Shown: piece by piece, positions 13,436-53,805 of the stretch
Layout of the letters: every line of letters starts with the position of its first letter
How positions within the stretch are numbered: position 1 is the stretch's first letter
Origin: Spinacia oleracea
Lineage: Eukaryota; Streptophyta; Magnoliopsida; Caryophyllales; Amaranthaceae
Direction: 5' to 3'
DNA length: 64,000 nucleotides
NCBI RefSeq assembly: GCF_020520425.1
Contig: NC_079492.1
Span: 107,667,157-107,731,156 of the forward strand
Notes under the pieces: model-generated
Databases searched by the model: none
Told to the model about the DNA's origin: nothing
What the model saw: only the letters and a program-made list of their open reading frames with translations
Translations under genes and position numbers: made by a program

Positions 13436-13711
13436 GTTGTTATGTTTTCACAAAAACATATCAGACTGCGATTTTTTCTTCCTCTTCCTAATCTAAGTCC
13501 ACCAATTCTTAAGTGGAATTTAGTGTGGACCATGTCTTAAAAAAAGGTCAAAATTTTATTTCTAATTTATTTTGGCTCGTTTATTAGGATTATTATGAAA
13601 AAAATATCAAATTGGTTTCCTTGATACATGTAATGCTTGAATAATGTGATTTTAAGTCATAATTCATTTTACAAACATAGGGTTACTATGATTCAAAAAA
13701 TGGTTACTATG

Positions 13712-14161: not shown

Positions 14162-14461
14162 CATTATAAATAAGAATTTGTGAATTCATTATAGTCACTA
14201 TATGAGCATTAAAGGTCTCTATGTGTGTAAAAAATGTGCTAGAGAAAACTTTTGGGTTTGGATCCACACTAATATTATTGTGGACCAGATCCACACAAGA
14301 ATAATCCATCAAAGTCTAGGGCCCGGGTACAACCGCGGTACATTTTTGGCATGGACCGGTGAATGAAGTGGATAATTCGTTTTTGGGTGGAATCAAAAAA
14401 TTAAATTTGGCCCGAAACAAATCAACCATATAGTTATACTTGGAAATTTTGACAAAACACT

Positions 14462-20772: not shown

Positions 20773-22173
20773 TGTTAGGTTATGATTCATATGACAAAAC
20801 ATAAATCATGCGGAAAAACCATAAAGCCAGGAAAGCATATTATTTACAAATAATCATTTAGCATAGTTTAGATGCATACACTTTGTTGCGTGCCCTCCCT
20901 AGCTGCGCCCGAACCGAACAAGAACAAGTCTTTAGGACTCCAAGTGTCGTCCCTCCGTAGATAGTCCACAGCACGTCCGGATCCGCCTTAAGCTTGACCA
21001 ACTAGAATCGCCCTTAAGGTAGCTTAGGAATTTCGGCTATTAGGTGCAAGTGTATGGCTGATTTTTCTTCAAAATCTTACCTTTAGAATACTTCAATTTT
21101 GTGTCTATAAATTATGACCCTAGGCTCCTATTTATAGAGGTATGGAAAAGGAATTATAATCCTACTAGGATTTGGATTTATTAATTAGAATCCAACTTGA
21201 ACTCTAAATAATAAACTTAATCTATTAGGATTAGGATTTAATCATATATATATCGAATCCTGATAGCTTTAGGATTCGTATAGCACGCACACGAGCATCG
21301 CACGAGCACCGCACACTCGCGCAGGCCTTGCGGCCCATGCTGAGCGCACAACGCTCGTCCCATGCTCGCTGCCTGTGTCCGCGCGCGCGCCCAAGGCCTT
21401 GGCTGGGCCTGGCCTTGCGCTGGGCCTGGTCGAGGCTTGGCGTGTGATGGTGATGCGTGTGGCTTGCTGGGCGATGCCCTGGCTTCGTGCTGGGCCTTCG
21501 TCTAGCGAGCCTCGTCTGATGCTAATTCGTACGACACGCTTCCGATTAAATTTCCGATTCCGGAATTCATTTCCGATACGAACAATATTTAATATTTCTG
21601 ATTCCGGAATTAATTTCCGTTTCGAACAAATATTTAATATTTCCGTTTCTGGAATTATTTTCCGATTCCGATAACATTTCCGATTCTGACAATATTTCCG
21701 TTTCCGGCAATATTTCCGATTCCGGTAATATTTCCATTTCCGATAATATTTTCCGACACGTACCATGTTTCTGTTTCCGGCAACATCTACGACTTGGATA
21801 ATATTTATATTTCCGATACGATCCATATTTCCGTTTCCGGCAATATCATCGTTTCCGGAGTATTCATTTCTTGCTTGTGACGATCTTAGCTCCCACTGAA
21901 ACCAAGATCCGTCGATTCCGAATATCCATAGATGGAGTATTTAATGCCATTAAATACTTGATCCGTTTACGTACTATTTGTGTGACCCTACGGGTTCAGT
22001 CAAGAGTAAGCTGTGGATTAATATCATTAATTCCACTTGAACTGAAGCGGCCTTTAGCTAGGCATTCAGCTCACTTGATCTCACTGAATTATTAACTTTT
22101 TAATTAATACTGATCCGCATTTATTAGACTTAATATTATATGCATACTTGGACCAAGGGCACTATTTCCTTCA
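20773..22173 (-). repeat. 3' LTR of the Copia element
   Basis: It begins (minus strand) TGAAGGAAATAGTG at 22173 and ends CCTAACA at 20773. It contains an 18-bp minisatellite (about 21540-21860), a GC-rich block (about 21270-21510) and a TATAAATA at 21129-21136. It is longer than the 5' LTR because it retains one more minisatellite unit and a short stretch near 21410. Confidence 0.95.
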
Positions 22174-23038: not shown

Positions 23039-26000
23039 TCAAAGCCATTCTCCAATATGCTTGATTCCCATAGCTGCAGTGTGCGAGTTGTGCTTCGCCT
23101 GCGGCAGAGGTTTAGTCAATGGATCTGATATGTTGTCATCAGTTCCAATCTTGCTTATCTCGACTTCTTTTCTTTCAACGAACTCTCGTAGAAGGTGAAA
23201 TCTACGAAGTACATGCTTGACCCTTTGGTGGTGTCTAGGCTCCTTTTCCTGTGCAATAGCTCCGTTATTATCACAATACAGGGCTATTGGTCCTTTAATG
23301 GAGGGGACTACACCAAGTTCACCTATGAACTTCCTTAGCCATATAGCTTCCTTTGCTGCTTCATGTGCAGCAATGTACTCCGCTTCAGTTGTAGAATCCG
23401 CAATGGTGCTTTGCTTAGCACTTTTCCAGCTTACTACACCTCCGTTGAGGTAGAAGACAAACCCAGACTGTGATCTGAAATCATCTTTGTTGGTTTGGAA
23501 ACTTGCGTCCGTATAGCAATTAATTCATCATCTCCACCATAGACCAGGAAGTCATCTTTATGCCTTTTCAGGTACTTCAGAATATTCTTGGCAGCAGTCC
23601 AATGTGCCTCTCCTGGGTATGACTGGTATCTGCTCGTAGCACTGAGTGCGTACGCAACATCCGGGCGTGTACATATCATAGCATACATTATTGAACCAAT
23701 CAATGATGCATACGGAATCCCATTCATTCGTCTACGCTCATCAAGTGTTTTTGGGCACTGAGTCTTGCTTAGAGTCATTCCATGAGACATGGGTAGGTAG
23801 CCTCGCTTGGAGTCTGCCATCTTGAACCTATCAAGCACCTTATTGATATAAGTGCTTTCACTAAGTCCAATCATCTTTTTAGATCTATCTCTGCAAATCT
23901 TGATGCCCAATATGTACTGTGCTTCTCCTAGATCCTTCATCGAAAAACATTTCCCAAGCCAAATCTTGACAGAGTTCAACATATGAATGTCATTTCCGAT
24001 AAGTAATATGTCATCGACATATAATACTAGGAAAGCAATTTTTCTCCCACTGACCTTCTTGTATACACAAGATTCGTCTGCGTTCTTGATGAAACCAAAG
24101 TCACTGACTGCTTCATCAAAACGTATATTCCAGCTCCTGGATGCCTGCTTCAATCCGTAGATTGATTTCTTTAGCTTGCATACCTTTTTAGCATTCTTTG
24201 GATCCTCAAAACCTTCAGGCTGTGTCATAAACACAGTTTCTGTTAAAACGCCGTTTAAGAAAGCGGTTTTGACATCCATCTGCCATATTTTGTAATCGTA
24301 ATATGCAGCAATTGCTAACATTATCCGAATAGATTTTAGCATTGCAACTGGTGAAAAGGTTTCATCGTAATCCACACCGTGGACTTGCCTGTAACCTTTT
24401 GCAACCAATCTAGCTTTAAAAACTTCAAGTTTCCCATCCTTGTACTTTTTCAGTTTGAAAACCCATTTTCTTCCAATGGCTTGGTAGCCATCTGGCAAAT
24501 CGACCAAATCCCATACTTGGTTTTCAGACATGGAGTCTAATTCAGATTGCATGGCTTCATGCCATTGCTTGGAGCTAGGGCTCGTCATAGCTTGTTTGTA
24601 AGTCGCAGGTTCATCACTTTCAAGTAATAGAACATCATAGCTCTCGTTCGTCAAAATACCTAAGTACCTTTCCGGTTGAGATCTATATCTCTGCGATCTA
24701 CGCGGGGTTACATCTCTAGATTGACCATGATTCTCACCAGATACTTCTAAAGATCTCTGAGTTTCATCTTGAATGTCATCTTGAGCATTCTCTAGAGTTT
24801 GTTGTTCGACTCGAATTTCTTCGAGGTCTACTTTTCTCCCACTTGTCATTTTGGAAATGTGATCCTTTTCCAAAAAGATACCATCTCGAGCAACAAACAC
24901 CTTGTTCTCAGATGTATTGTAGAAGTAATACCCCTTTGTTTCCTTTGTATATCCCACAAGGATACATTTGTCAGATTTTGGATGAAGTTTGTCTGAAATT
25001 AATCGTTTGACGTATACTTCACATCCCCAAATCTTTAGAAAAGACACTTTTGGAGGCTTTCCAAACCATAACTCATATGGAGTCTTTTCAACAGCTTTAG
25101 ACGGAGCTCTATTTATAGTGAGTGCAGCTGTATTTAGTGCATGTCCCCAAAATTCTATTGGAAGTTCGGCCTGACCCATCATTGACCTAACCATGTCTAG
25201 CAAGGTTCTGTTCCTCCGTTCCGACATACCGTTCCATTGTGGTGTTCCAGGAGGAGTCAAATCTGATAGAATTCCACATTCTTTCAGATGGTCATCAAAT
25301 TCATAGCTCAGATATTCACCGCCTCTATCAGACCGCAGTGCCTTAATCTTCTTGCCTAATTGATTCTCTACTTCACTCTGAAATTCCTTGAATTTGTCAA
25401 AGAATTCAGACTTATGCTTCATTAGGTAGACATAACCATATCTACTGAAGTCATCAGTGAAAGTGATAAAGTAGCTGAAACAAACTCTAGCATTTGTACA
25501 CATTGGTCCACATACATCTGTATGGACTAAACCCAATAGTTCAGTTGCTCTTTCTCCAACTTTAGAGAAAGGTTGCTTTGTCATTTTGCCAAGTAAACAT
25601 GATTCGCACTTGCCATAATCCTCTAAGTCAAATGGTTCTAGAATTCCTTCCTTTTGAAGTCTTTCCATGCGTTTCAAGTTAATATGGCCTAATCGACAAT
25701 GCCACAGATATGTGAGATCTGAATCATCCTTTTTGGCCTTTTTGGTATTTATGTTATAAACTTGTTTGTCGTGATCTAATAAATAAAGTCCATTGACTAA
25801 TCTAGCAGATCCATAAAACATCTCTTTAAAATAAAACGAACAACTATTGTCTTTTATTAAAAAGGAAAATCCCTTAGCATCTAAGCAAGAAACTGAAATG
25901 ATGTTTTTAGTAAGACTTGGAACATGGAAACACTCTTCCAGTTCCAAAACTAGCCCAGAGGGCAACGACAAATAATAAGTTCCTACAACTAATGCAGCAA

Positions 26001-26997
26001 TCCGTGCTCCATTTCCCACTCGTAGGTCGACTTCACCCTTGCTTAACTTTCTACTTCTTCTTAGTCCCTGTGAATTGGAACATAAGTGTGAGCCACAACC
26101 TAAATCTAATACCCAAGAGGTTGAATTAACAAGTGTACAGTCTATAACGAAAATACCTGAAGATGGAATGACTGTTCCGTTCTTCTGATCTTCCTTTAGC
26201 TTCAAGCAATCTCTCTTCCAATGCCCCTTCTTCTTGCAGTAGAAGCATTCGGATTCAGAAGTGGGTTGACTAACCTTCCTCTTTTCAGACTTGGCGCCAG
26301 TTTGCGTAGTTGGGCTGGCCTTGTTGCCACCTTTCTTAGCATTCCTCTTCTTTCCAGATTTCTTGAACTTACCCCCACGCACCATAAGCACATCTTGCTT
26401 ATCACTTTTGAGCGTCTTTTTAGCGGTCTTCAGAATACCGTGAAGCTCAGTGAGCGTTTTGTCCAGACTATTCATACTATAGTTCAGCTTGAACTGATCA
26501 TACCCGCTATGAAGAGAATGGAGGATGGTGTCTACAGCCATTTCCTGAGAGAATTGCTGATCCAGCCGACTCATATTCTCAATGAGTCCAGTCATTTTGA
26601 GAACATGTGGACTTACGGGCTCGCCTTTCTTAAGCTTGGTCTCAAGAATTTGCCTATGAGTCTCGAATCTTTCGACTCGAGCCAGATCTTGGAACATGTT
26701 CTTTAACTCACTGATGATCGTGAAAGCATCTGAGTTGATGAACGTTTTCTGCAGATCTGCACTCATGGTGGAGAGCATTAGACATTTCACATCCTTGTTG
26801 GCATCAATCCAACGATTGAGGGCTGCCTGAGTGACCCCTTCGCCTGCGGCTTCGGGCATCGCCTCTTCCAGGACATACTCCTTTTCTTCCTGCATAAGAA
26901 CTATTTGCAAGTTCCTTTGCCAGTCAAGGAAGTTTTTCCCGCTCAACTTCTCCTTTTCGAGAATTGATCGAATGTTGAATGAATTGTTGTTTGCCAT
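23039..26997 (-). pseudogene. Copia gag-pol polyprotein with a frameshift in RNase H
   Basis: An open frame of 1187 codons starts at 26997. Gag comes first, with zinc knuckle CFYCKKKGHWKRDC near residue 250. Protease follows with D298 in the motif LDLGCGSH, where the residue after Asp is Leu instead of the usual Thr or Ser. Integrase then shows HCRLGH...CESC and a D,D,E core (HTDVCGP, FTDDFSRYGYV, RSDRGGEYLS). Reverse transcriptase has LYVDDILL. Near 23515-23525, after GGDDELI, a small indel shifts the frame; RNase H homology (TTEAEYIAAHEA, YCDNNGAIAQ, HIGEWL) continues in another frame to 23041. The polyprotein would lack RNase H and probably has a damaged protease. Confidence 0.95.
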
Positions 26998-30196: not shown

Positions 30197-31558
30197 TGTT
30201 AGGTTATGATTCATATGACAAAACATAAATCATGCGGAAAAACCATAAAGCCAGGAAATCATATTACTTACAAATAATCATTTAGCATAGTTTAGATGCA
30301 TACACTTTGTTGCATGCCCTCCCTAGCTGCGCCCGAACCGAACAAGAACAAGTCTTTAGGACTCCAAGTGTCGTCCCTCCGTAGATAGTCCACAGCACGT
30401 CCGAATCCGCCTTAAGCTTGACCAACTAGAATCGCCCTTAAGGTAGCTTAGGAATTTCTGCTATTAGGTGCAAGTGTATGGCTGATTTTTCTTCAAAATC
30501 TTACCTTTAGAATACTTCAATTTTGTGTCTATAAATTATGACCCTAGGCTCCTATTTATAGAGGTATGGAAAAGGAATTATAATCCTACTAGGATTTGGA
30601 TTTATTAATTAGAATCCAACTTGAACTCTAAATAATAAACTTAATCTATTAGGATTAGGATTTAATCATATATCGAATCCTGATAGCTTTAGGATTCGTA
30701 TAGCACGCACACGAGCATCGCACGAACACCGCACACTCGTGCAGGCCTTGCGGCCCACGTTGAGCACACAGCGCTCGGCCCATGCTCGCTGCCTGTGTCC
30801 GCGCGCGCGCCCAAGGCCTTGGCTGGGCCTGGTTGAGGCTTGGCGTGTGATGGTGATGCGTGTGGCTTGCTGGGCGATGGCCTGGCTTCGTGCTGGGCCT
30901 TCGTCTAGCGAGCCTCGTCCGATGCTAATTCGTACGATACGCTTCCGATTGAATTCCCGATTCCAAAATTCATTTCCGATACGAACAATATTTAATATTT
31001 CCAATTCCGGAATTAATTTCCGTTTCGAACAAATATTTAATATTTCCGTTTCCGGAATTATTTTCCGATTCCGATAACATTTCCGATTCTGACAATATTT
31101 CCGATTCCGGTAATATTTCCATTTCGGATAATATTTTCCGACACGTACCATGTTTTCGTTTCCGGCAACATCTACGACTTGGATAGTATTTATATTTCTG
31201 ATACGATCCATATTTCCGTATCCGGCTATATCATCGTTTCCGGAGTATTCATTTCTTGCTTGTGACGATCTTAGCTCCCACTGAAACCAAGATCCGTCGA
31301 TTCTGAATATCCATAGATGGAGTATTTAATGCCATTAAATACTTGATCCGTTTACGTACTATTTGTGTGACCCTACGGGTTCAGTCAAGAGTAAGATGTG
31401 GATTAATATCATTAATTCCACTTGAACTGAAGCGGCCTCTAGCTAGGCATTCAGCTCACTTGATCTCACTGAATTATTAACTTGTTAATTAATACTGAAC
31501 CGCATTTATTAGACTTAATATTATATGCATACTTGGACCAAGGGCAATATTTCCTTCA
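30197..31558 (-). repeat. 5' LTR of the Copia element
   Basis: It begins TGAAGGAAATATTG at 31558 (minus strand) and ends CCTAACA at 30197. It carries the 18-bp minisatellite (about 30950-31245, fewer units than the 3' LTR) and the GC-rich block (about 30700-30930). Confidence 0.95.
30553..30560 (-). promoter_or_regulatory. TATA box in the 5' LTR
   Basis: TATAAATA in the context CTCTATAAATAGGAGCC is a strong plant core promoter match. The same motif is conserved in the 3' LTR at 21129-21136. Confidence 0.65.
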
Positions 31559-37440: not shown

Positions 37441-40323
37441 TCATCTTAACAAGAAATTCTTCAAGTTGCAGAAGATTCCCTCATTATATGGATTTCTAAA
37501 CCTTGTATCTGGCAAGGATTGATCTAATCATGGAATGATAATGAAGTTAGGCAGAAATATATATATGTACAAGGACTAAAATTAAACAATTAAGTGGATA
37601 CAGGAGGCATAACAGAACAAGAAGCCTATACTACGTGAAATTACCTGGTGAAGGCTGAAGAATGACATGGAACTCTGGGTATCTTCTCCAATTTATCTAC
37701 AAACACATTGACACGCAAATCTAAATTATCTATACAGAAACAAGGTGAGAGTAGTGAGACAATGTTAGCAAATTGCAAAAATTGTTTGCTAGTCCAACAA
37801 CCCAATCTCATGCATGTTTAGTAGGGTCAGCTTTCTGCTAAATTCGTAGCAACTAGCAAGTCTTTTCTTTTTCTTAATTTTTTAGCATCAACTCAAAAAA
37901 AATAAAAATATGATTCATAAGTTCCAATGCCTATGGTAATTCAAACTTCATACATGCTAGTCCTCAGGGGAAAAATATGCCTTCTCCAGATGATATGCCA
38001 AAACTAACAGGATCCATGGAACGAGCCAGCATTTGGTTTCTTAACACTTAACTCTTATTAGCAGAAAAACTTACCCATTCTTCGGTTCTTATATTGAAGC
38101 ACACACAATGTACATGCCATGCAAAAAAAATCACCTGTTTAGTCATCAGAGAATCATCAGTATAGTCAATAAACATGCAGGCCAACTCATTTCTCGTCAA
38201 TGAATCCAGTATGGTACAAAACTGCACAAACCTGCCAAAGCACTTGAAGTAAAGAAAAGATCATTGTACTCATGACCAAGTTGTATTGAATCTACAACAG
38301 ATTAAATAGCACAAACAAGCTACATTAGTTGCACAGATCAATAATAGGTCAGGGAAAAGATGACAGATGCCATGTGTTTCCAGCGATGCATTAATGGTAT
38401 AGGATTCTCTATAAAGTGGAGCAGTGGACAAGGAGAGATTTACCTTGGAGCTATTCTCTTTCAAAATCAGATGTCTGTTGATCCCTGAAACCCAGGCAAT
38501 AGAGGGAAAACATGAGAAATAACAACTGTGCTGGGATCAAAAGCCAAACAGAATCAGCTCTAAGTAGCATCAGAGTTCAGAACATTCCAACAATAGGGGT
38601 CCTAATTTATTTAGGTGGATCAACAAAGCTAGCATATATGACAAGGATTTTTATAGAAACGTACCAAAAGGGTCAATGTTAAATCAATAGAGAGAGATTT
38701 TGCAACAGATCAGGAGAATCATTCAAAAGAAAACACAGAGCTTACACTGATAAGAAAGCACCGAATATGCAGTCTCGGTCACTATGAATAGAACCAAAAG
38801 TGACAGGAAAAGGCCATAATTCTTCTGGCCTACAGATAATTAGACGATCAGGTGTTATGGAGTTGAAACATGAATGAAAATAATGAAAACGTAATACACA
38901 CCATATTCTAAATATTCAAGTTCAAAGTTATATAGCAGCCTATTAACTTCTAGCTTCAAACTCATGGACTGTTGTTACCTATGCAGTTCCCAAAAGCAGG
39001 GCAATGGTGATCAAATCCCATAACATAGGCTTTGCAAATCCTACAGTAGCGCATCCTTCTTGAAGATAACGAAGTCTAAAAGGGGAAAAGGCATAATGAA
39101 CCATCTTCTTACATATGACAACTGTAGTTAAAGCTCATTTGTAGTTGCAAACTGAAATTATGGGAAGATGCAAACAGAATCTTATTTTACACTCTTAATG
39201 AACACCTTTGCAAATGAACAGTTATTTTAAAAACAGCAGAATGTAATTACATGGGCCATAATAGCCTTCCGAAAGAAAATGGGAAAAGTAAATTCACCAT
39301 TTCATTTGAGTTGTGAGAGCTTATGCCTCCTGCCGTAGATGATGTTTCCTGTAAACATTTGGCATGAAACGTGTTAGGCATGTTATTTCCTGATCAACAA
39401 GGGTCATTTCCACTTTACAACCTCCAGATGATGCCCATCTTCTGAAATAGAACCCTCCACTAAACCAGGAGAGTCATGGCGAATAAAACCAGGATCACTT
39501 GATAAGATCCTGAAGCCAAGCAAGTATTTCTAGTGTGAGGAAAACATCAATGATAGAAGTCAACTAACAGCAAGAGTGATAACTGATAAGTAACTCCACC
39601 TTAAAAACCCAATAAGAAGAACTGCTAGCTCCGCGTTGAATACAATATTTAGCAGCAATGAAACAACTGCAAACAAGTAAATAAAATTCAAGCAATGATC
39701 AAAAGAAGAGGAACCTTAAGGGACTTTAACCAATTCACTTTTGCAACAAGTATTTGTTTCAACTGAACATCCAAATGGCTATTTCTGAAAAATATAATCA
39801 TGCAAGCATCAAACAAGTTTCAAAGGTATGCAACACTATATTATCTAGAATCACGTACCAAACCAGATATTTGAGATGTCACAACATAAATACATACAGT
39901 AATCATTTACTCTCTCCATTTCAAATTCTTTCTGACCAACAAAACAAAATTTTCTTATTCCATACTCCCTCCGTATTTATTTAAGAGATACACTTGGTCG
40001 GGCACGAGTATTAAGAAGAAGAATTGAATGAAATAAAGTAATAAAACAGGTGGGGTTGGAGTAGATATTTTAATAAGTAAAACAAGTGGGGACCATGTCA
40101 TATTAGAGGAGTGGGGGTGTGAAATTATTTGTTTAATAGGGTGGTGGGACATAGATATATTAGATAGATTATTTAATTAGATGGTGGGGTTGATAAGCTA
40201 GGTAGCACAGATACGGATACGGAAACGGATACGGGGACGGAAAACGAAAAAACCAAAATTTCTAAAAACGGGTACGGCTTGGATTCGGCAAAAAAAATAA
40301 AAAAAAAATTATATATATATATA

Positions 40324-40360
<37 letters not shown>

Positions 40361-43300
40361 CAGAGAAGTATATAACTATTACCTAACTTTGTTTAAAAGG
40401 AGTACGAAGTAATAAATACGGGGTAGGAAACAAAATAGTTGGTTTTTTGTAAAAACAATCAGTGGCCACGTGGTACCACTTTCCACCTTTTCTTTTTCTG
40501 ATTTATTATAAGTGGTGAGTGGTACTCCCTCCGTATTTTTTTAAGAGATACACTTGGCCGGGCACGGGTATTAAGAAGAATAATTGAATGAAATAAAATA
40601 ATAAAGCAAGTGGGGTTGGATAGATATTTTAATAATTAAATATGTGGGGACCATGTCATTTTGGTGGGTGGAGGGTGGGTGGGTTTATGAAAATATTTGT
40701 TTAATAGGATGGTGGGTGATAGGGTATATTAGATGTATTATTTAATTAGATGGTGGGGTTGATAAGTTACTAAAAATGGCAAGTGTATTTCTTAAATAAA
40801 TACGGCCGGAAAAGGCAAGTGTATCCCTTAAAAAAATACGGAGGGAGTACTTTTTTTTATTTAAAACAAAAGGTAAAAAGAAGAGATCAAGAAACGGCGA
40901 GGAGTTCTGAGTCTTCTGACTTGCTGGTTCCTTCAATCGGCGAGGGGCGAGGTGATTCTGTCAGCGGCGGCTTCTGCAAACAACGAGTCGACCGGAGTTC
41001 GCTGGCTAGTTGAGTTGCTGGCCTCGTTGCAGCGCTGCTGCTCACTGCTCAAGTGTTCAGTTGCTACGAACGGCCGGACAGGTGGTGGCGAGGAAGAAGA
41101 ACGGCGGCGAGGGCACAACCGGCGGGCCGCGAAACGACGGGTGAGTAAGGCTTCGAAGAGAGGTGAGAGAGAAAGTGGGGTAATTGGAAAATAAAACCAT
41201 AAAATTTGAATTTGGGTCTTAAAACTTCAGTAATAGTTGCTGGGTACGTGGTTTATTTCCAAAAACGTTTCCAAACCGTACCCACCCGCGTACCCAGCCG
41301 TACGGCCCGTACACAAATTCAACCCGCATACCCACATTTCGAGTTCGGCCTGGGGACGTTTCCTGGACATACCCGTCCCGTACCCGTACCGTACCCATAA
41401 ACCCAACCAGTCCAGAATCATAGCCTTGCATTCATTCCCATCAGGGCTGGCTATTAGGGGGTCTAGGTGGACATACAGAACAGGCCCCGAAATTTTTGGG
41501 GCCCATAATCAAAATGCTGGTTGATTTAAAAAGAAAAACCTTTTAAAAAATAAAGCCCAGCTTCCTTCTTCCCCAATTCTCGTGAAACAAGGAAGTAAAC
41601 TCTTCACATTTTTTCTCCAACTTCTATGATTCGGTTTCCGATGAAGGAGTAATTAATTATCTCTATTATAACTCTCATAGAAATCATCCATCCATAAATA
41701 AATGAATTGTTTCTCTAATTTTTTTTTTTTTCCAATAACTCAACAATGAACAAATGTTCCATTTTTTTTTACTGTATCATTCTTGTTATGGAAATTATAA
41801 AGTAATTTCTTTTGGACTACGAATGCTAAGCATTCAATGCTTGTTGGGGAAAAGAAATCAAATTTGTAGGAAACAAAATCTCAATTCAAATCTGAAAGAA
41901 CTCAAATCCGACTTTGCCGTGAACAAATTGTTCTACCTAATCTTATGCTTAATTATAATACATTTGCTAGTTGAATTTTCATATTACTTTGTACTTCGTA
42001 CTATATTGCAATTGTCGTTATATTGAGTTTTCATGTATGCCTTCTGAAATTAGGAAATTAGATTAAAGTAAAACTGAAGAGTTAATATTATGGATCATTC
42101 CTAAAAGAATGTCAACTATTTGTTCCTAATTTATTTTGGCAAATCTTTGAATATTATTATGAAAGAATATCAAATTTGTGTTATTGGTACATGTTATGCT
42201 TGAATAATGTGACTTTAAGTCACAAATGTAAAAAGAGTGTTAGATAAAATAATTGATTTTGGGTCCATACTAATATTATTGTGGACCAGGTCCACACAAG
42301 TATAACCCTATTATGTTTATAATTTTAATGTCGTTACTAAGTGTCTGTTAAAATTTACACAAGGGCCTAATTTTATACTCAGCACAGGGCCTCCGAATTG
42401 TCGGAGACGGCCCTGATTCCCATAATCACAGTCAAAGAATAAATGAATGCTGAGTAGTTTCTTCGGAACAGCTACAGATTGCACATAAGTTATCATTCCC
42501 TATTAACATCTTGTGTAGCCTAGCTTTTGTTTTGAGCCTATCTTGCATTGCCAGCCAAACAGGTTGGGCACAAAAAATCTATTCCAGACTAGGTGACTCC
42601 ATCTGACTCTAGTGTTGTTGCCTGACATGGTCTCATACATCTTTTTGATGGAGTAGAAGAAAGTAACATCCATTGAGAGGACTGAAGAGAATTGGTGAAG
42701 TTCTCTTTCACTGAACAAACATATTTCACAACCCAACTGGCTTTTGGGTTGACAAAGTTTATCCCAAGCTACAAAACCTGGTTTACGGTCTTCATATGTA
42801 CCAAACCAAAGGAATGACCTACACTGCAAAACAACCTTGGGGAAAATGAAAATTTGAGACCAGTGTACACTGATGCTCATTATGACAAAATTGATCAATT
42901 GGGACCTTCCAGCAAAGGAGATATATGCCTAGAGCTCCAAATCTTTATTCTAGCAACCATTTTATCCACTAGAGCCTCACAATCACTAGCTTTTAGTTTT
43001 CAAGGGCTGACAGGTACACCTAAATATTTGAAAGGTAATTTACCAACCTGGAAGCCGGAGATGTCAATGATGTTTTGACACAGTTATCCGTCATCCCACA
43101 ACAGTAAGAGAAGATTTATCTGAGTCGACTTGCAACCTTGTGGTGTCAGAAAACAACTGAAAACCACTTAGCATGAGCTGAATAACCTGAGCATCCCCTT
43201 TGCAAAACATGAGCAAATGGTTCAGTTGCATACCCCTGCATCTGGAATGAAACTTGAAAAGTGGATGCTCCCCCACTGTAGATATGGCTCTGGAGAAGTA

Positions 43301-46300
43301 TTCCATGCACAAAGTAAAGAGGAGGGGGGAAAGGGGGTCACCTTGCGTCAAACCCCTCTTAGGGTGGATGATTTCAGTAGGTACACCATTAATAAGGATA
43401 GAGTATTGGGTGGTAGTGAGACAGGTCATAATGAGATGAGTGAAATGGGAAGGGAAACCAAGCTCCTGCATGACTTCAGCAATGATATCCCATTCAACAG
43501 TATCATATGCCTTCCTAAGGTCTAGCTTCATAAAACAGTTTTCTGTACATTTTTATAATATCTTGACAAACAAGAACATTTTGCAGAATAGATCTTCCAG
43601 CCACAAAAACACCTTGATTTTGAGATATTACGTCAGGGAGAACTGAGTTCAATTTAGCACAAAGGAGCTTTGAAATGCATTTATACACCACAGAGCAGCA
43701 TGCAAAAGGCCTAAAATTCCCAACAGAAGATGGAACACTCACCTTTGGCACCAAGGTGATGGAGGTGACATTGATCTCCTTGAGCATTTTGCCAGTCCCG
43801 AAGAAATCACAAATAGCTGTGTAAATGTCAATTTTCACAATATCCCAAGAAGCCTTGAAGAACATGCTATCGAAGCCATCAAGGCCAGGACCTTTATTGA
43901 TTGGGATAGAGTCCATAACTTCCTTAATATCCTCCAAAGAGAAGTTGCAATCCAGTTTGGAGATATGGTGTCCCTGTCAATAATTGCAGTCTTAACGGGT
44001 GTTCTGTGTGACATAGAGGACCTGAATAGTGACCCATAGAAGTCCATAAAAGATTTTTGGACATCCTCAGCAGAACTGATCCATTCACCTCCGACTGACT
44101 GAAGAGAATGAATTTTATTGTGTTTTCTCCTATGCAACTTGGCTCTTTGTTGCATGAAAGAGGAGTAATTACTCAGTGTTGTTCTATATTACTTCTCAGC
44201 AGAAGCCAACTCAGTATTGGTGGGATCATAATGAAGCTGTGCCTGAGAAGATAGAAAGATGTGGTGGACCTTGATGCAGTCAGCTTCAACATTACTATAA
44301 CCAGTTTGATTCAGTTGCCTCATATCATCTTTGATCCATTTAAGCTTCTAAACTACTCTGAACATAGGGCATCCATACACAAATTTACCCCAATGTTCCT
44401 TAACTATGTCAAGGAACTTGGAAAAGGAGGTCCACATGTTAAAGAATCTGAAGGGTCTTGAATCATTGGACAATGATCAAACTCTTCCTCAGGAAGATAG
44501 GTAGCCTAGCCTCAGCATGTTCAAAACAATCATCCCATAAGGCATTTGCTAGGACCAATCCTGGTAAACACCCTATCAACCCCATCCTGTTTTATTCCAA
44601 GTGAAATGTCTTCCCATAGTTTTTAGAGTAGTGAGTTAACCGTGTAGCATTGTCTCATGTGTTGAATATCACTCAACCTTACTGCAGAACCAACTCTATC
44701 CTCCATCTCCATTATTGCATCAAAACCCCCCATTATAATCCAGGGAGAGTTACAGCATACGGTGGCCATACCAATGTATAAAAAGGCTCAAGGCGCAACA
44801 AGGCGATTTGGAGTTCCCAGCGCCTTAGGCGCGCCTCGGTGCGCCTCATTGAAGTGAGGCGCCCTAATAAAAAGTGAAAAAAAAAGTGAAAAAATGGTAT
44901 GTCTCTTGGTAGGTGCGCCTTTTTGCGCCTCAAAGTGCGCCTTTGTGCGCCTTTTTGCGCCTTGATGCGCCTTTTTGCGCCTTAGGTGCGCCTCATTGAA
45001 GTCGCCTCGCCTAGACAATAAAAGGCGCTGGCTCCAATCGCCTTGCGCCTCAGAGCCTAGGCGCGCCTTAGGCGCGCCTTTTTATACACTGGGCCATACT
45101 AGTGAGAGTAGCCCACAATTCCTTCCTCTCTGTGGTAGTGTTCATACCATAGACAAAGGAGCAAAAGAAGCTACTCTGAGTAGTTCTAAGGGTAATAGAA
45201 CAATGCACAAGTGACTGGTCATATGTATGACGTCCACATTAAAAGTATCTACACCCCAAGCAAGTATGATTCTACCATTATTATGACAACTACTAATTGA
45301 GGAGAAGCACCAATTTGGGCAAAGATTGAGATAAAGATTACCCATCTTAGAAACTTTCACTCTAGACTGAACAGTTTGATTTGGTGAGAAGAGATATCTC
45401 CCTCACTTTGATCTGTTTGGCTTTCCTGTTCAGACCCCTAACATTCCAGCAAAGTAATTTATCCATTAGGCTTAGGAACCTTGCAGCTTGTACAAAACCC
45501 ATCGGAGTGTGGTTATCATCTATGTGAGTGATGATGTTGTCACATTGGAGACCACAACAGGTGGGATAGGATGGGTAGGTTGAACAATCTTAGGTACCCA
45601 CACTCTCTTAGTAGCCTTGGTTGTTTGCCTTGTGCAAGAGGTGTAATTGTGGTCATATCCCTTACAAATTGAGCATGAAATAGGGAGCCAATCATAGTTG
45701 ATTTTCTGGTCAACTGTATCCCTTTTCTCATTTACAAAGTGTATAATAGCATCATAGCAGGAACTCCTGACTGATATCCACTTCAACTAGGACTTCTGCA
45801 AACATCAACTTGCCCCTATTGTGTGTTGCTTGTGTTGCTTGATCAACTTTGACCATGGAACCAATCTTACTCACAATCTTGGAGAGACTCTTGTCCCCCT
45901 AATATTTAACATCAAGGTTGGGTAATTGTATCCATATTGGTAATTTCCTGAAGGTGTCCTTGGTAATATTCATGTCAGCAGACCAAGGTTTCAAAATGAC
46001 AAGTTTCCCATCAAAGAAATTGAATCCACCATTGATGACCTTCTGACAGTTTTCCATGGTGGTGAAACGAACCAGAAACATACCCCTCCCAATCAGAGAG
46101 ACTTTGTCCACCCCATACTTGCCCCATATTCGTCTAACAAATCCCTCCATAACATTCCAAGGTGGGTTAGCCCCAAGAACATAGCATAAAACAACAGATT
46201 TCCAAAATGAAATCTCATCCTGTATGTCCTCAAGATCAATTTGTATGATTTTAGGTTGTTTATCATTATTCATTGTAATACATTCCGAGCAAACATCATT

Positions 46301-47565
46301 ATTTAGGATATTAACACTATCATTATCGGTTTGAATTACTTGATCAACAATTCTACTCCCGCCAATATTCAAATTCGATTGAAAATGGGAGTGAATATCA
46401 TTACCCGATTGTAATCCGTTAATCCAAGCATTGAAGTCATTTCGGACGTTTGATCGATGTTGCAGCCGCTGGAGAGACGACTTGGGAGTAAGGATTTAAT
46501 CCTCTGAAATCGCTTCAAAATCTGGGTTTGATCGCAAATCAGAGTGGTCTGAAATCGAATCATTGTCTACCATGTCTGTGTTTGAAGGTCGTTTATGGGT
46601 ACTAGATCGCTTCTTGTTGACCGCCGTTGTTCTGGCTTTCGTATTTCCACCATTATTGTTGCGTTTTACCTGCTTGCGAATGTTGGCCATGGCGTTGAGG
46701 AAGGGAACCCTCTTCGAACCCTCTCAAGCGAAAAACCACTATTTGATCACATTGAATAACTATTTAATTGAAAAGTGCAACTATATGTTCAAGAAGTTGG
46801 TCTTATACATAAAACTATCTAATAGAAGTTTTATATTACCTCATTATAATGGGGGGAACTATTATCAAGGAAAAACAAAAGATACTAAACCATTCAGTCT
46901 TGTGGCCTACAAGGATACAAGTCTTGTTTGATGTAACACCTAACTTCCAAGAAAACATGTCAACTTCCCATCATAAATATGAGCACAATTACGACCCAAG
47001 AACGAACTACAATAAAACAAAATAATTGAGCAAAAATTCACTCATTCAAATTATGCAAATTATATAGAAACCTAATATTAATCACCAGCAATACTCTTCT
47101 CGATTATTAATCGAATTGAGTTAATCAAATGTAAATCGAGGATAAAAGGGAGATTAATCAATATTACCTTGTCTAATCACACTAAGATAAACAACCCAAA
47201 TGAAGATTATATGAAAGAAAACGAAAGCCGGAGCTGAAGCATGAACTCGTAACAGACGCTTGATAAACTGGCATGATATAATAGCAATTGCAAGCACTGC
47301 ACCTGCAATTCATGAAAAGCGAAATTTAAATAAATAAATAGGTAATTGATAAATCCCCAAAAGTAAGTGAGCTTCTAATTAACAGTGTTAGGGCAAGAAA
47401 ACCTGAGAGGATGAATTGGAATAGGAGAGAGAATAGTGGGAATAAATGAGGTATGAGAAGTAGGGAAATTTGAGTGATGATGCCGGAAATTAATGATATC
47501 ATACACCGGATTATTAACTCCGGCGACTTTCGCCGGCTGCCGTATTCCTCGATTGACCCCGCCAT
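37441..47565 (-). CDS. DHHC-type protein S-acyltransferase, twelve exons
   Basis: Exons on the minus strand: 47403-47565, 47168-47302, 39600-39666, 39422-39509, 39298-39348, 38979-39075, 38746-38829, 38444-38484, 38232-38291, 38075-38134, 37645-37696 and 37441-37508. They total 966 nt and 321 aa, open throughout, all GT-AG. DHHC enzymes transfer palmitate to Cys of membrane proteins. Hydrophobic segments lie in exons 1-3 and in exons 7 and 9-10. The catalytic DHHC is at residues 190-193 within RYCRICKAYVMGFDHHCPAF. Typical flanking blocks are ILSSDPGF, RTEEWINWRRYPEF and RNPYNEGIF. The Cys-rich domain is a reduced plant-type version. Intron 2 (39667-47167, 7.5 kb) is full of transposons. The small exons were missed by simple frame scanning. 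Confidence 0.93.
39965..40203. mobile_element. Stowaway-type MITE, right end missing
   Basis: It starts CTCCCTCCGTATTTATTTAAG after TA at 39963-39964 and matches the element at 40525 through the GATGGTGGGGTTGATAAG block. It then stops and runs into another repeat (TAGCACAGATACGG...). It lies in intron 2 of the DHHC gene. Confidence 0.7.
40204..40524. repeat. ATACGG-repeat segment and (TA)n microsatellite
   Basis: From 40204, TAGCACAGATACGGATACGG looks like the end of a hAT-type MITE with GATACGG subterminal repeats. Bases about 40308-40359 are a (TA)n run. A matching right end was not fixed; GTACCC-rich sequence at 41230-41395 is a candidate partner. Confidence 0.45.
40525..40847. mobile_element. 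Stowaway-type MITE with doubled right end
   Basis: It starts CTCCCTCCGTATTTTTTT and ends AAATACGGAGGGAG with TA at both flanks (40523-40524, 40848-40849). Just before the true right end lies a second, diverged copy of that end (GGCAAGTGTATTTCTTAAA), so the terminus is present twice. Confidence 0.8.
40850..41399. other. Unassigned GC-rich and GTACCC-repeat segment
   Basis: Bases 40890-41190 are GC-rich with small frames but no domain. They resemble a transposon 5' region. Bases 41230-41395 contain degenerate CCGTACCC repeats that interrupt the 3' part of the second LINE. Confidence 0.35.
41442..42415. mobile_element. Non-autonomous hAT element inside the second LINE
   Basis: The termini CAGGGCTGGC and the complement CAGGGCCGTC form a short inverted repeat. 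The flanks are an exact 8-bp duplication ATTCCCAT (41434-41441, 42416-42423). The 974-bp interior has no transposase. Its right part (about 42110-42310) is shared with the region 13555-13680 plus 14215-14300. Confidence 0.88.
42424..45466 (-). pseudogene. LINE ORF2, endonuclease and reverse transcriptase (second LINE)
   Basis: It opens MDKLLCWNVRGLNRK at 45466, 8 nt inside the end of ORF1. Endonuclease blocks flank the MITE at 44772-45091. Reverse transcriptase blocks are SITLVPKVSVPSSVGNFRP, NQGVFVAGRSILQNVL, MKLDLRKAYDTVEW and RGLTQGDPLSPLLF. Where the catalytic FADD is expected, the sequence goes straight from LNHL to LMFCKGD: about five codons including both Asp are gone. Several frameshifts and stops (e.g. 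near 43515, 43835) add to this. Confidence 0.85.
44772..45091. mobile_element. GCGCC-rich hAT MITE nested in LINE ORF2
   Basis: The inverted ends are CAATGTATAAAAAGGC and the complement CAGTGTATAAAAAGGC. The flanks are an exact 8-bp duplication GGCCATAC (44764-44771, 45092-45099). The 320-bp interior consists largely of degenerate GGCGCAA/TTGCGCC units (TTTTGCGCCT repeated) with an A-rich island. It is non-coding. Confidence 0.9.
45459..46690 (-). pseudogene. LINE ORF1, DUF4283/CCHC protein (second LINE)
   Basis: It starts MANIRKQVKRN at 46690. A DUF4283-like part (SFWKSVVLCYVLGANPP, VDKVSLIGRGMFLVRF) is followed by zinc knuckle CSICKGYDHNYTSC. Stops occur at about 46496 (TAA where the first LINE has Gln) and about 45899 (TAG where Trp is expected), plus frame changes. 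The terminal TAA overlaps the ORF2 start as ATGGATAA. Confidence 0.85.
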
Positions 47566-48169
47566 TTTTCGTCCTCAATTCAATGATATTCTTTGAATTA
47601 GTGGTTAATGGTTACGGACTTACCGGAGTATTCGACCTCATACCTTCATGCTGGACAGAAGAAAATTTATGGCCCAAAAGATATGGACTAGAGTCACTAG
47701 ACTTTGAGCCATTTGAATATTCGATGGGTCCATGATACAAATTCGGAGTGTTGCTCTTTTCATTAGGGGTGAAAGTTCGGTTTATGGTTTGGATTAAATT
47801 CCAAACCGAAACCAAATCGAATTAATTTGGTTTTTAATTTTTGAAACCAAATTCGAACCAAATAAGCTTTCAATCCAAACCAAACCAAATCGAATTTTTA
47901 ATTTCCAATCCAAACCAAACCGTTAAACAGAAATTTCCATGGACCTGTTTTTGGGGCCGGTCTTTGGGCTGAATTATACCTGTTTTAAGCCCATTTTGGG
48001 CCCTTGTTATACTTTACTACCTGTTCTTTAGCCAATTTTCGAAGACTTTTCTAATTATACTTGCTTAACTGCTTTAAATAAATATTTAGCCACAAGTCCA
48101 CAACACACACAAATCAAATAGTTGCTGCAATCACATATCTAAAAGTCTGAAATTAAAGTACCAATCACC

Positions 48170-48400
48170 AAAGTCTGAAATTAAATGCCTGAATGACTCA
48201 CTGAATTACATCAAAATACCAATAGAAAAGTCTGAAATCTGAAATTAAAAGTCTGAATGACTGAATTACAACAAAATACCAAACGAAAAGTCTAAAAGAC
48301 TGAAACTAAAAGCCTGAATTACATCAAAATACCAAAGGAAAAGACTGAATGACTGAAATACATCAAAACACCAAATTAAAAATCTGAAATTCAATAAAAT
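48170..48400. repeat. Tandem repeat in the hAT 3' region
   Basis: Units of the type CTGAATGACTGAATTACATC plus AAAATACCAAAGGAAAAG recur four or more times with a period of about 50-60 bp and variation. Confidence 0.6.
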
Positions 48401-48644
48401 TTCAATTCATAACAGTAAGAGATTGCAGCAGCATCACATCAAACACCAAGCAGCAGGTCAGCAACACAGGTTACCAGCAGCAGGTCAATAACACCAAACA
48501 ACCTCCTACTCGTCGATCTCAATCGTTTCATGATCGACAACATCATTTATGGACATTTTATTTAAGTCTTGCAATAAAAAAATAAAAATTCAGATATGAT
48601 AAGGGAATGAAACAAACTTAAAAGGAGAAAAACAGTAAGAAAAA

Positions 48645-50693
48645 TTAACAAAAAAAATATAAGTTACCTTCAAGAAGCTCCACTTCCTCCAAACACTCTT
48701 CAACACCTTGGAATGGACCAGCCCGTAACCAATTTTGATTACAAACAAGACCTTGAACGACCACCGGACTTAAAGAGCTTCTAAAATTGTCAAGAACTCT
48801 TCCCTCGGTGCTAAATGCACTCTCGGAGGCCACGGTTGATATTGGCCGGGACAGCAAGCACATCACGAGCCATTCTTCCCATAGTAGGAATCCTTGCACT
48901 ATTGAACTTCCACCACCCCAAAATATCAAAGTCATCATCTTCCTCCTCTGTATCCTCCTCCAAATACTTATCTAACTCAATTTTTGCCTCTCCACTAAGC
49001 TCACATTTATGCTTCTTATACTTACTTTTCGAAACCTCGACCTTCTTATGTGAGGTAGTTGACTGTGTATCATCCTTAGTGGATGATACTTCCTCCCTAA
49101 CAACATCAGTTGGAGGCAAAATACGATATTCCTCAAATAAAGCACTCAATATATCTTTCACATTTCTTGCCAACAGAGATGCAGCAATAACATCATAAAT
49201 TTCAGTCAACATCCACTCGACATAATCAAATTTATAACGAGGATCAAGGACAACAGCAACAAAAATGAGCAAGTTAATTTTTTCAGGATCACCCCAATAT
49301 TTCTCATGCTTTTCCTTCATTTTACAAGCCATAAGACACATATCTTGATCATCACTCGATGTTAGCTCTTTCAAAAGTACCGCGACATTAACCAACTCAT
49401 GAAAAAATAAATTGGAAGTCACATACAAAGACCCAGATACGCGATTAGTAATATCATAGAAGGTTTGCAAAAATTCAGAAAACTTTTTCACACTATTCCA
49501 ATCCTATGATTCAGGGATACATTTCCCCTCCCTTTCACACAAATCAACCGTATAATGAGGGTCCTCCTTAGCATACCTCTCAAAATCACTCTCAAGAGAA
49601 ATTGCAGCACTCAACATCAAGTATGTAGAATTCCACCTAGTTGGCACATCAAGGCATAACAACTTTTTGGAAACTATTTTTTCATATGACACACACTTTT
49701 TAAACCTTAGCAACCTTGATGGAGATTGTTTAATGAATCTCACAGCATGCCTAACACGAGTAATTGACTCATTAACCGTTTTCATGCCATCAGAAACAAC
49801 CAAATTTACTATATGTGCTACACAACGCATATGAAGGAAACGACCCTTAAGAACCCCACTTTTCCAACCATTAATTTTCCTTCTCATATATCCAATGGCA
49901 GTATCACTCGAGCTAGCATTATCTACTGTTATGCAGAATTTTTTTTCAAGTTCACATTCAAGCAAACACTTCTCAATTTGTTTACCAATTTCCTCACCCT
50001 TATGACTAGCAATAGGACAAAAATTCAGGATTCGTTTTTGTAATTTCCATTCATTATCTATGAAATGAGCAGTTAAGCACATATAGTTAATTTGTTGTAC
50101 TGAAGTCCATGTATCAGTGGTTAAAGAAACTCTAGACTTGCATTGCCTCAACTCATGTTTAAGTTTCCTTTTCTCAATCAAGTAAGATGCAAAATAATCT
50201 TTTGCTACTGTTTTCGTAGAAGGCACATGAAATCTAGGCTTCATCCTGCTACAAAAGTACCTAAAACCAATTCCCTCGACAAATTTAAAAGGCAACTCAT
50301 CTACAACAATCATGAACGCAAGAGCTTCCTAAGACTTGCAGCATCAAACTTATGATATGTTGTTAAACCACTAGTTTCTCCAGCTTTAACATTACCATGA
50401 AAAGATAACAAAGTTTCCTTAGAATCCTTAGGTGTGTTGTAAGGATACTTATGACACTTATTGATGTGATCCCAAAAGAAACTCGCACCATTCTTCTTAG
50501 GATCGCATTTGTATTCCATCTTGCAGTACTTACAGGTTGCTTTCATCCCATCAGAGGTGTCTGTCTTCAGAAAGTGCTCCCACACTTCTGAACGGTCTTT
50601 CATTCTCTTCCTTTTGACTTTCTTAAGCTTCCTTGAAGAAGCTGAAACTGCCTCTGGGACATCAGGGACTCCCTCTTCCACTTGGTTAGACAT
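48645..50693 (-). pseudogene. hAT transposase (BED finger, dimerization domain), three lesions
   Basis: It starts MSNQVEEGVPD at 50693. A BED zinc finger (CKYCKMEYKCDP...HINKCH) is followed by the RNase H-like catalytic region (LTTDTWTS, RCVAHIVNLVV, VPTRWNSTYLML) and the C-terminal hAT dimerization region ([29 protein letters not shown]). Three breaks are seen: a one-base deletion near 50325, where the frame ends LRKLLRS* before MIVVDELPFKF; a TAG at 49504-49506 (ES*DWNSV); and a 4-base insertion near 48855 between LAVP and ISTVA. The enzyme that cut and moved the element is therefore no longer made intact. Confidence 0.9.
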
Positions 50694-50779
50694 TATGACT
50701 GAAATTTAAAGCAACAAAATATTGCATAAGTAAATGAATAATAGTAACAATTTTGAACAATCTAAATCACTCAAATTTG

Positions 50780-51190
50780 AACAAAAATCACCAATAACTT
50801 CAAGCAAAAATCACCAATTCATTCAAGAAAAAATCATCAATTAATTCCAGCAAAAATCACCAATTAATTCAAGCAGAAATCATCAATTAATTCAAGCAGA
50901 AATCATCCACTAATTCAAGCATAAATAAATCAATTAATTCGAGCATAAAACAATCAATTATTCGAGCATAAATCAATCAATTATTCGAGCATAAATCAAT
51001 CAATTATTCGAGCAAAAATCATCAATTAATTCGAGCAAAAATATCAATTAATTCGAGCAGAAATCAATCATTTATTCGAGCATAAATCATCAATTAATTT
51101 GAGCAGAAATCACTAATTAATTCGAGCAAATATCACCATTTAGTTCGAGAAAATATCACCAATCAATTCAACAAATATCACCAAATTGAG
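50780..51190. repeat. Tandem repeat upstream of the hAT transposase
   Basis: About 18 degenerate copies of a unit like AATCATCAATTAATTCGAGC (20-23 bp) lie between the transposase start and the element's right end. Confidence 0.7.
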
Positions 51191-51917
51191 TATACTAATT
51201 CGATAAAAAATAAAACAAATAAATCGAACCATAAATCGAACAAATACTTGAATAAACAGAAAATATACTACCGAATTTTCGAATAATAAATCCACGAACA
51301 ATTAAGAGTATCAGATTCGTTATTTCGTACCTTTGAATCTTTAAGCCGGAAAAATAACCGGAGAAGGAGCCGTGATTCCGTGAAGAATGAGATGAGAAGC
51401 AAAAGCAAACGGAGCAGTGACGAGTTGACGACTGACGAGGAGTCACTGACTCACTGTGCCGAGAAGAGTAGTAGACTAGCAGAGACTCGGAGAGGATGAG
51501 AGATTGAGAGGACTCGAGCAGATCAGAAGACTGAGAGGAGAGCCAGAGGTGCCGCTCCTCAACAGTTAGTTTTAGGGTTTTTGTGAAATTACTCAATGAG
51601 GGAATGAGGGTAGGGGGTGAAATTACCGGCTAAAAAAGGCAATGACTCGCTGAGGTTTATTTGGGCTAAAAAAGGAATGAGGCCTATTATTTGAGTACGC
51701 CAGTAGGGTTCGAAAATTATGAAGTTCGGTTTGTTCGGTTTTATTCGGTTTATTCGGTTTTAGGTTTTTCAACCCAATCCAAACCATAAAACCATTTTTT
51801 TTAAAATCTTAGTCCAAACAAAATTGAATAGAAAAAAAATCGAACCGAATTTCTTATTCGGTTCGGTTCGGTTCGGTTTTCGGTTTTTTCTACCAAACTT
51901 TCACCCCTACTTTTCAT

Positions 51918-53805
51918 GGTTGTCAATCACCGCATGGTTTTTTAAGGCAGTGATTTTTTTGTTGAAATGTATAAATTATAATTATTGTAATACCCTGATA
52001 GTTTCGTAGGTCTGTTAGTTCGGAGGTTCGAAAATCCGGTGGATTTGGAATCGTAGGCTTAGCAAATCGGAGCCGGACTCAGATATTGGGCCCGTTTATT
52101 AATCGGGTCGGATGCGAATCTTGTTAGGCCCGACCCATTGCAGTCCCTGGTGGCAAGGGAGTGTCTAAAACAGAGGGCTAAATTGTAACAGTAAGGAAAT
52201 TCAGATAATAAGAGAATTTTGATTTTTTTTCCAAAGAAAGATTTTAGGGGGTAAGACTGTCAATTCCCTATTTCAAGACCCGCTACTTTATTACAGTCTA
52301 ACTCAAAAAGTAAATTTTGTGTAAGACCGTAAGTTTGTAATGAATAAAATTCTATAACAAGAAATTTGATTTGTGATGTATTGCATACAGGAAAAAGAAA
52401 GAAAAAAAACTTGATTCAATTCAAATTCAAATAACTTTTAAGTTATTGGGTATTGGGTCTATATCAATCCTCCTCTGTTTACCAAGCCCATCTAAATATC
52501 GTGACAATTATGAACAATTTGGTAGGCGCTAAGTATAGTGATTAGTGAGAACAATTAAAATCTTAGCTTGTATCATTTGTATACTTGAGCCAGGCAAAAA
52601 TTAATTAGGTGGCAAGTGACAAGAAAAAAAAGCGGCTAGACATATTTGGCAAGGAAAGAAACAAATTTGGCAAGGAAATGGGGTTAAAGTGTAATTGAAG
52701 TATGTAAGGGTAATTCATTAAAAACACTATTCTTAAGAGAAAATTAGATTTTACAAAGAAGCATTTGTGGTTAGGACGTAATTCCACTATTTCAAAATGG
52801 GAGTCCTTTCTTTTAAAAGGGTTAAGGATTCAATCATTGGACATAGGGCTGTAAATGAGCCGATACTTTCGCGAACAAGCTCGGTCAAAGTCTCATCAAA
52901 TCTCGTTTGTTAAGTAATGAACGAGTTTGAACAAAAATCGTAGACTCGATAGATAAATGAGCCAAGCTCGAACAACATCACGTTCTGCTTGTTAATGTTT
53001 ACGAGCACTCGTTTATCCACATCAAAAAAAATTAAGTTATTGCTTTATCCAATCGAGATGCGTTGTGGAATATCCTTAATTATACAAGTACTTAAAAGAA
53101 TGTGATGTTAGTGAGATTACATGAAGTAGTAAGTGGAAACATAATTGAGTAACCTTTAACCGCAAACCTAATTTATAGATAATTGTACAATACCAAATTA
53201 CCAACTAATCCAGATTGCGCACTTGAAGAACATTTGCTGTCTACAGTCTGCATCCCTTCAAGTTATTAGAGTAGCATAATATATTTATTTATGTTACATA
53301 TTCTATGATGAGATATGATACGATGCATGAAGCAATTGTAACGCGTAGATGATCAGTAATTCACTGTATTCTGGTAATTAAGCGTGTATACATGCATGGC
53401 TATCGTCTATCGACTATCATAGTAGCAATCAAGAGTTGAATTTTAATAAAAGAAACTTAAAAAGAGGGAGATATAGAAGAGGAAAGAAGTTTATAACCCA
53501 AAAATATAAGAGGCTGTAAGGTTGACTAATTTATTCATTTGTGACGCACTATGTTTCGTTATCTGTCTCTGCTTTACAAAAGTAGAATCATACTCGTTTA
53601 CCTAAAATTAAATTAAAATTTTTAAAAGAAGAAGAATATAATCTTGTTAAGGTAATAATTGTTGGCTTTTTAAATTTGGCACCGACCTGGATCATGTTGT
53701 TATTCTATTCACAATATAATAATCATAGTGAACCAGATTATTAATCCTTCAACTATTTATTGCTATGGCTCGGTCCATTAAAAAAAATTTAATTTTATTG
53801 ATATA
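51918..53805. other. Intergenic DNA
   Basis: No gene was recognised. Around 52855-53030 (CTGTAAATGAGCCGA..., CTCGAACAA, CGAGCACTCG) the sequence resembles a decayed hAT-type MITE with GAGCTCG-like repeats, but no paired ends were fixed. Confidence 0.4.

Follow-up and report, generated by a model that had tools for sequence, protein, structure and literature searches.

An uninterrupted DHHC gene of spinach with a transposon-filled second intron and a hAT element close to its start codon

Structure of the gene

The window analyzed here is a stretch of 64,000 nucleotides of the spinach genome (contig C6, 107667157-107731156), and searches of the plant's own genome were run against an assembly whose 242 contigs total 894,210,420 bases. 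On the minus strand of the window lies a gene for a DHHC protein, for which twelve exons joined from the sequence (47565..37441, Table 1) give a coding sequence of 966 nt and a product of 321 aa. All 11 introns have GT-AG borders, the exon-exon phases run 1,1,2,0,0,1,1,0,0,0,1, and the spliced coding sequence shows neither a stop nor a frameshift across its 966 bases, with 24 and 11 stops in the other two frames. An in-frame stop is located directly upstream of the ATG of exon 1. Intron 2 measures 7,501 bp and the remaining ten introns 73-378 bp; the available text of PMC3796536 gives 3-12 introns for Arabidopsis PAT genes, which includes the eleven counted here.

These results reproduce exactly the twelve exons and the uninterrupted 321-aa protein proposed in an earlier note on this DNA, and the phases listed there all match. 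The junction 47168/39666, which that note had singled out for confirmation, is consistent in sequence as to splice sites and phase, and its statement that the frame was kept through repeated insertions agrees with 321 open codons and canonical splice sites. An alternative model of 11 exons and 330 aa, in which exon 9 corresponds to 38221-38075, was rejected because it scores 14.3 bits lower for Pfam DHHC (58.4 vs 72.7 bits). For exons 1-2 the model is based only on the open frame, the splice sites and hydrophobicity, with the homologue alignment starting at aa 109, and the junction between exons 2 and 3 is a predicted one.

Table 1. Features of the DHHC gene and of the repeats within and upstream of it (window coordinates).
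Feature	Coordinates	Strand	Remarks
exon 1	47403..47565	-	start ATG at 47565; aa 1-55
exon 2	47168..47302	-	reaches aa 100
intron 2	39667..47167	-	7501 bp, about 90% transposon per map made here
exon 3	39600..39666	-	
exon 4	39422..39509	-	DPG motif at aa 127
exon 5	39298..39348	-	
exon 6	38979..39075	-	DHHC cysteine-rich domain; DHHC at aa 190-193
exon 7	38746..38829	-	
exon 8	38444..38484	-	
exon 9	38232..38291	-	model with this exon beats 38221-38075 alternative on Pfam DHHC score
exon 10	38075..38134	-	TEEW, TTxE-like, aa 279
exon 11	37645..37696	-	
exon 12	37441..37508	-	NPYN at aa 305; stop codon ends at 37441
Stowaway MITE S1	39963..40200	.	right side truncated
repeat X, unclassified	40198..41392	.	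edges approximate, roughly 1.2 kb
Stowaway MITE S2	40525..40847	.	complete, TA both sides, nested in repeat X
LINE	41393..46735	-	gene orientation, frames broken, 3' end missing, upper boundary approximate
hAT-B	41442..42415	.	974 bp, TSD ATTCCCAT, in 3' part of LINE (by eye)
hAT-C	44772..45091	.	320 bp, TSD GGCCATAC, in LINE
leader, ATG to hAT-A	47566..47763	-	198 bp; TGGGCC at 47676, CATAAA at 47671
hAT-A	47764..51909	-	4146 bp, complete, TSD CTTTTCAT both sides, broken transposase on the gene's strand
other repeat DNA beyond hAT-A	51932..52797	.	genome matches

Several further features were observed in the window. Just downstream of the DHHC gene, a plus-strand frame at 36317-36787 matches Hsp20/alpha-crystallin (Pfam 6.2e-08, profile positions 25-76 of 102) and looks like the remnant of a shortened small heat-shock protein. 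On the minus strand, 23434-26997 holds a frame of 1187 aa of the Copia retrotransposon type, in which gag, integrase and RVT_2 domains were recognized, and an uninterrupted frame of 587 aa for a dyskerin/CBF5-type pseudouridine synthase occupies 3739-5502 on the plus strand. Short tandem repeats resembling TTCCGATTCCGGAAATA form blocks at 17803-18058, 21546-21818 and 30953-31165, in ORFs of related sequence, and the three blocks likely belong to one repeat family.

Copy number and properties of the DHHC protein

A search of the spinach genome with the protein, in which 20 of 20 candidates were scored, returned 16 matches, 11 of them at the locus itself and five elsewhere. The latter are 29-41% identical; four do not extend beyond the DHHC core, and the fifth, at 29%, covers aa 43-214. 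The gene is the only copy found in this 894 Mb genome, which is good but not absolute evidence of a single copy, as the search runs exon by exon and retains the best candidates. Among these matches there is no intact twin of which the gene could be a decaying duplicate. With the C-terminal 148 aa as the query, no relatives were detected in the viral contigs searched, and the two bacterial or archaeal loci obtained from five stretches (29% and 38% identity, short, E 2e-4 among the candidates) were set aside as chance matches. Among the papers listed in a literature search none deals with this spinach gene, which does not disprove that one exists.

The Pfam DHHC match extends over aa 173-285 with 72.7 bits against a cut-off of 28.7, beginning at position 16 of the 133 of the profile, and includes the catalytic DHHC tetrapeptide. 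The motifs DPG (127), DHHC (190-193), TEEW (279) and NPYN (305) follow each other in the expected order; the TTxE site reads RTEE, its first T being replaced, and we take NPYN to be the PaCCT motif. DPG, TTxE and PaCCT are named as motifs of DHHC S-acyltransferases in the available part of PMC8059564. Residues 109-313, encoded in exons 3-12, align collinearly with yeast ERF2 (8hfc). In our own reading of overlapping hydropathy windows the protein has six hydrophobic clusters, three of them in exons 1-2, in agreement with the 4-6 transmembrane segments expected; its computed pI is 8.87 and its GRAVY 0.46.

The cysteine-rich domain (aa 169-201) retains C179, C182, the DHHC tetrapeptide and the Cys at aa 199, but lacks the first CxxC, and Tyr replaces both the His of HC and the third Cys, so that the complete consensus domain with two CCHC zinc sites is not present. 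C179 and C182 are the only Cys or His among the 25 residues before DHHC, and no exon carrying the absent CxxC was seen by eye in a three-frame translation of the sequence between exons 5 and 6. Judging from the ZDHHC20 structure, the four missing residues would presumably coordinate one zinc ion and the retained residues the second; the existence of two CCHC zinc sites in this domain is described in the portion of PMC7586229 at hand. Eight other DHHC loci were fetched, and seven could be read by pattern (L007 did not match it): the set of zinc ligands is complete in five of the seven, and the other two start after the CxxC, at what appears to be an exon edge, and keep the remaining ligands. 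The full two-zinc domain is typical of the family and was not taken as strictly defining. With four residues of one zinc site absent the protein is mildly unusual, and its sequence points to a divergent DHHC protein, whose acyltransferase activity is treated as a prediction because of this departure from the consensus domain.

Transposons within and upstream of the gene

At least six insertions are visible in intron 2, namely two Stowaways, an unclassified repeat, a LINE and two hATs, which are arranged from low to high coordinates as S1, repeat X with S2 inside, and the LINE with hAT-B and hAT-C inside. The estimate that transposons make up about 90% of the intron comes from our own map, in which the upper boundary of the LINE (46735) is approximate. 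None of the hAT and Stowaway boundaries found touches an exon. The LINE was recognized by matches to RVT_1 and DUF4283, and it also matches LINE remnants elsewhere in the window. LINE-like matches were computed on both sides of hAT-C, whereas the position of hAT-B within the LINE was read by us from the coding sequence that flanks it and is not a computed match. Parts of hAT-B (42091-42308) match 13526-13662 and 14226-14307 at 80-83%, where a second copy or a relative probably lies.

Stowaway MITEs are defined by CTCCCTCC-type inverted ends, a TA duplication and high copy number, and S2 presents all three. When a 1,241-bp query covering repeat X and S2 was searched in the genome, 40 of 3,120 candidates were scored, among which the copies of S2 are mostly 96-99% identical, with one at 92%, suggesting that S2 is probably a young insertion. 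A single relative of repeat X was found among these scored candidates (L036, C5:3805971-3806901), in which S2 is lacking and the TA site is uninterrupted; more relatives may have been missed because S2 copies fill the scored list. Around repeat X no target duplications were detected, either in the window or in L036. S1 and the LINE, the latter at its 3' end, both break off at the borders of repeat X, which points to a probable additional deletion or rearrangement.

Upstream of the gene, hAT-A is flanked by perfect 8-bp target duplications (CTTTTCAT), its ends are alike at 17 of 20 positions, and domain matches to hAT-like_RNase-H (1.1e-26), Dimer_Tnp_hAT and zf-BED identify it as a hAT element. 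Its transposase is split into three ORFs, the first being out of frame with the second, and the second and third sharing a frame with a stop between them; the match to the dimerization domain ends at position 46 of 84. A genome search, in which 40 of 232 candidates were scored, gave at least 84 matches, and by our own count 29 of the 83 others start at base 1 and 26 of the 83 end at base 4146. Long copies are 93% (about 3.0 and 2.6 kb), 88% (3.0 kb) and 85-86% (about 3.6 kb) identical, and one piece of 1.4 kb is 96% identical; from the long-copy identities of 85-93% the family is read as not very recent. The repeat DNA that follows from about 51932 has at least 50 matches including the query locus (40 of 59 candidates scored), which leaves 198 bp plus about 22 bp of unique upstream sequence. 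Within the 198-bp leader neither TATAAA nor TATATA was found, and we regard the TGGGCC and CATAAA present there as possible promoter elements.

The earlier note had listed Stowaway MITEs, a LINE and two hATs in intron 2, all of which are there, but had missed repeat X, the roughly 1.2-kb element at about 40198-41392. Its nesting of one hAT in the LINE holds for hAT-C, to which hAT-B is added by eye, and its minimum of five insertion events is exceeded, with six counted in the intron and seven when hAT-A is included. What it described as a 4.1-kb hAT relic does have a broken transposase but is a full-length element of 4,146 bp with perfect target duplications. The spacing of 198 bp that it gave between this element and the start codon checks out, and the start of the gene does border transposon DNA.

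Interpretation of the locus

With a probability of roughly 0.83, we interpret the locus as an intact nuclear gene, of which no further copy was found and which encodes a divergent DHHC membrane protein, most likely a protein S-acyltransferase, and whose second intron was built by transposons. As intronic insertions leave the reading frame untouched, any gene under selection would be expected to keep it. RNA polymerase would read through the whole of intron 2 and the spliceosome would remove it as one unit, the transposon block being probably heterochromatic and tolerated via machinery of the IBM2 type, as known in Arabidopsis and rice. The most likely place for transcription to start is the 198-bp leader that separates the ATG from hAT-A, possibly in the vicinity of TGGGCC/CATAAA (47676-47671). 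In catalysis, the enzyme would first acylate itself at the cysteine of the DHHC tetrapeptide (aa 193), and the acyl group would then be transferred to cysteines of target proteins.

As to where the transcript begins, it is also conceivable, albeit unlikely, that hAT-A supplies the promoter or a first non-coding exon, an arrangement compatible with an intact gene. The transposase lies on the same strand as the gene, the element ends 198 bp upstream of it, and the leader lacks TATAAA and TATATA; nevertheless, the TGGGCC beside CATAAA could serve a compact plant promoter within the 198 bp themselves.

A recent silencing of the gene, in which expression has been shut off by hAT-A at the promoter and by the transposon-filled intron before the frame was lost, so that the gene is becoming a pseudogene, would be in line with the short distance to hAT-A and the further repeat DNA beyond it, with the transposon content of intron 2, and with the departures from the consensus cysteine-rich domain. 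We consider this quite improbable, given that the identities of the long hAT-A copies (85-93%, with 96% for the 1.4-kb piece) do not suggest a very fresh insertion, that the 966 coding bases are free of frameshifts and stops with all splice sites canonical, and that a second copy was not found.

The integrity of the transcript across intron 2 can be judged from the coding sequence and from the intron itself. The methionines of the protein are located at aa 1, 22, 168 and later, so that exons 3-12 provide none before aa 168, a position beyond both DPG and the membrane segment in front of it, and reading on from exon 2 into intron 2 leads to a stop after 103 aa. Such a dead end means that a failure to splice intron 2 would destroy function and, together with the absence of an early methionine in exons 3-12, it favors one transcript. 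Nine AATAAA and nine ATTAAA hexamers are present on the sense strand of intron 2, numbers reached in 46 and 49 of 300 Markov-1 resamplings and thus no clear excess; as a sequence proxy only, these counts give no support for premature polyadenylation in the intron, which the earlier note had put forward as a possibility along with alternative splicing. Two separate transcription units, with exons 1-2 ending in intron 2 and exons 3-12 transcribed on their own, are highly improbable, as the hexamer counts are matched by the resamplings, a start at aa 168 would come after DPG and the preceding membrane segment, and the phases of the exons join exactly.

Read as an intact gene with a transposon-built intron, the locus is a clean worked example, in which at least seven insertions in a partly readable order accompany a gene that is intact and was found in one copy only. 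The Monoe-Viroflay spinach assembly consists of 69.9% repeats according to the available text of PMC8668906, and the locus offers a fair natural test of whether read-through of the IBM2 type is needed in a crop genome of which repeats make up about 70%. Because TE-bearing introns are common in plants, the architecture of the gene is ordinary for larger plant genomes, and the protein is the more unusual point.

Comparison with known systems

Like ERF2, ZDHHC9 and ZDHHC20, the spinach protein has the DPG, DHHC, TTxE-like and NP-type C-terminal motifs in order. It differs from the canonical zDHHC proteins in having six hydrophobic clusters instead of four transmembrane segments, and in lacking the first CxxC, the His of HC and the third Cys. 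In the woodland strawberry survey all 21 members carry the signature, yet conservation of Cys 14, 17 and 34 is limited to part of them, and H27 is well conserved, as far as the available text of PMC11722789 goes. Cys 14, 17 and 34 are three of the four positions absent in the spinach protein, the fourth being H27; as H27 is well conserved in strawberry, the survey does not show the exact spinach variant to be already known. The spinach protein resembles FvPAT8 (FvH4_3g35813) of the same survey, a protein of 307 aa with six predicted TM segments, a pI of 8.88 and a GRAVY of 0.41, which is listed there as having no Arabidopsis homologue (PMC11722789): the spinach values are 321 aa, six clusters, 8.87 and 0.46. 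This comparison by listed properties, not by sequence, is a lead to orthology only. A more far-reaching proposal, that these proteins represent an uncharacterized FvPAT8-like lineage of plant DHHC proteins absent from Arabidopsis, with six membrane segments and a one-zinc catalytic domain, and that in spinach the output of the gene is governed by the transposons around its start and in intron 2, is tentative, and we would lean against it for the present. A DHHC lineage with a reduced zinc domain would, if it has no counterpart in Arabidopsis, have been overlooked by work centered on that species.

Regarding the intron, Arabidopsis RPP7 reportedly contains an intronic retrotransposon. In rice, 5,809 heterochromatic introns with a 5' bias were described in 4,227 of 37,866 gene models (about 11%), many of them transcribed, and loss of OsIBM2 leads to premature polyadenylation in such introns, according to the accessible portion of PMC7145194. 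The same source reports that 980 of 1,967 TE-containing rice introns do not overlap heterochromatic ones, and as this is about half of them, heterochromatic marking of intron 2 is not to be taken for granted. The spinach gene resembles the rice set (PMC7145194, as available) and RPP7 in having a long, promoter-proximal, transposon-filled intron in an otherwise intact gene, and differs from them in carrying several nested TE classes instead of a single insertion. Intron 2 is most likely spliced normally in a working gene.
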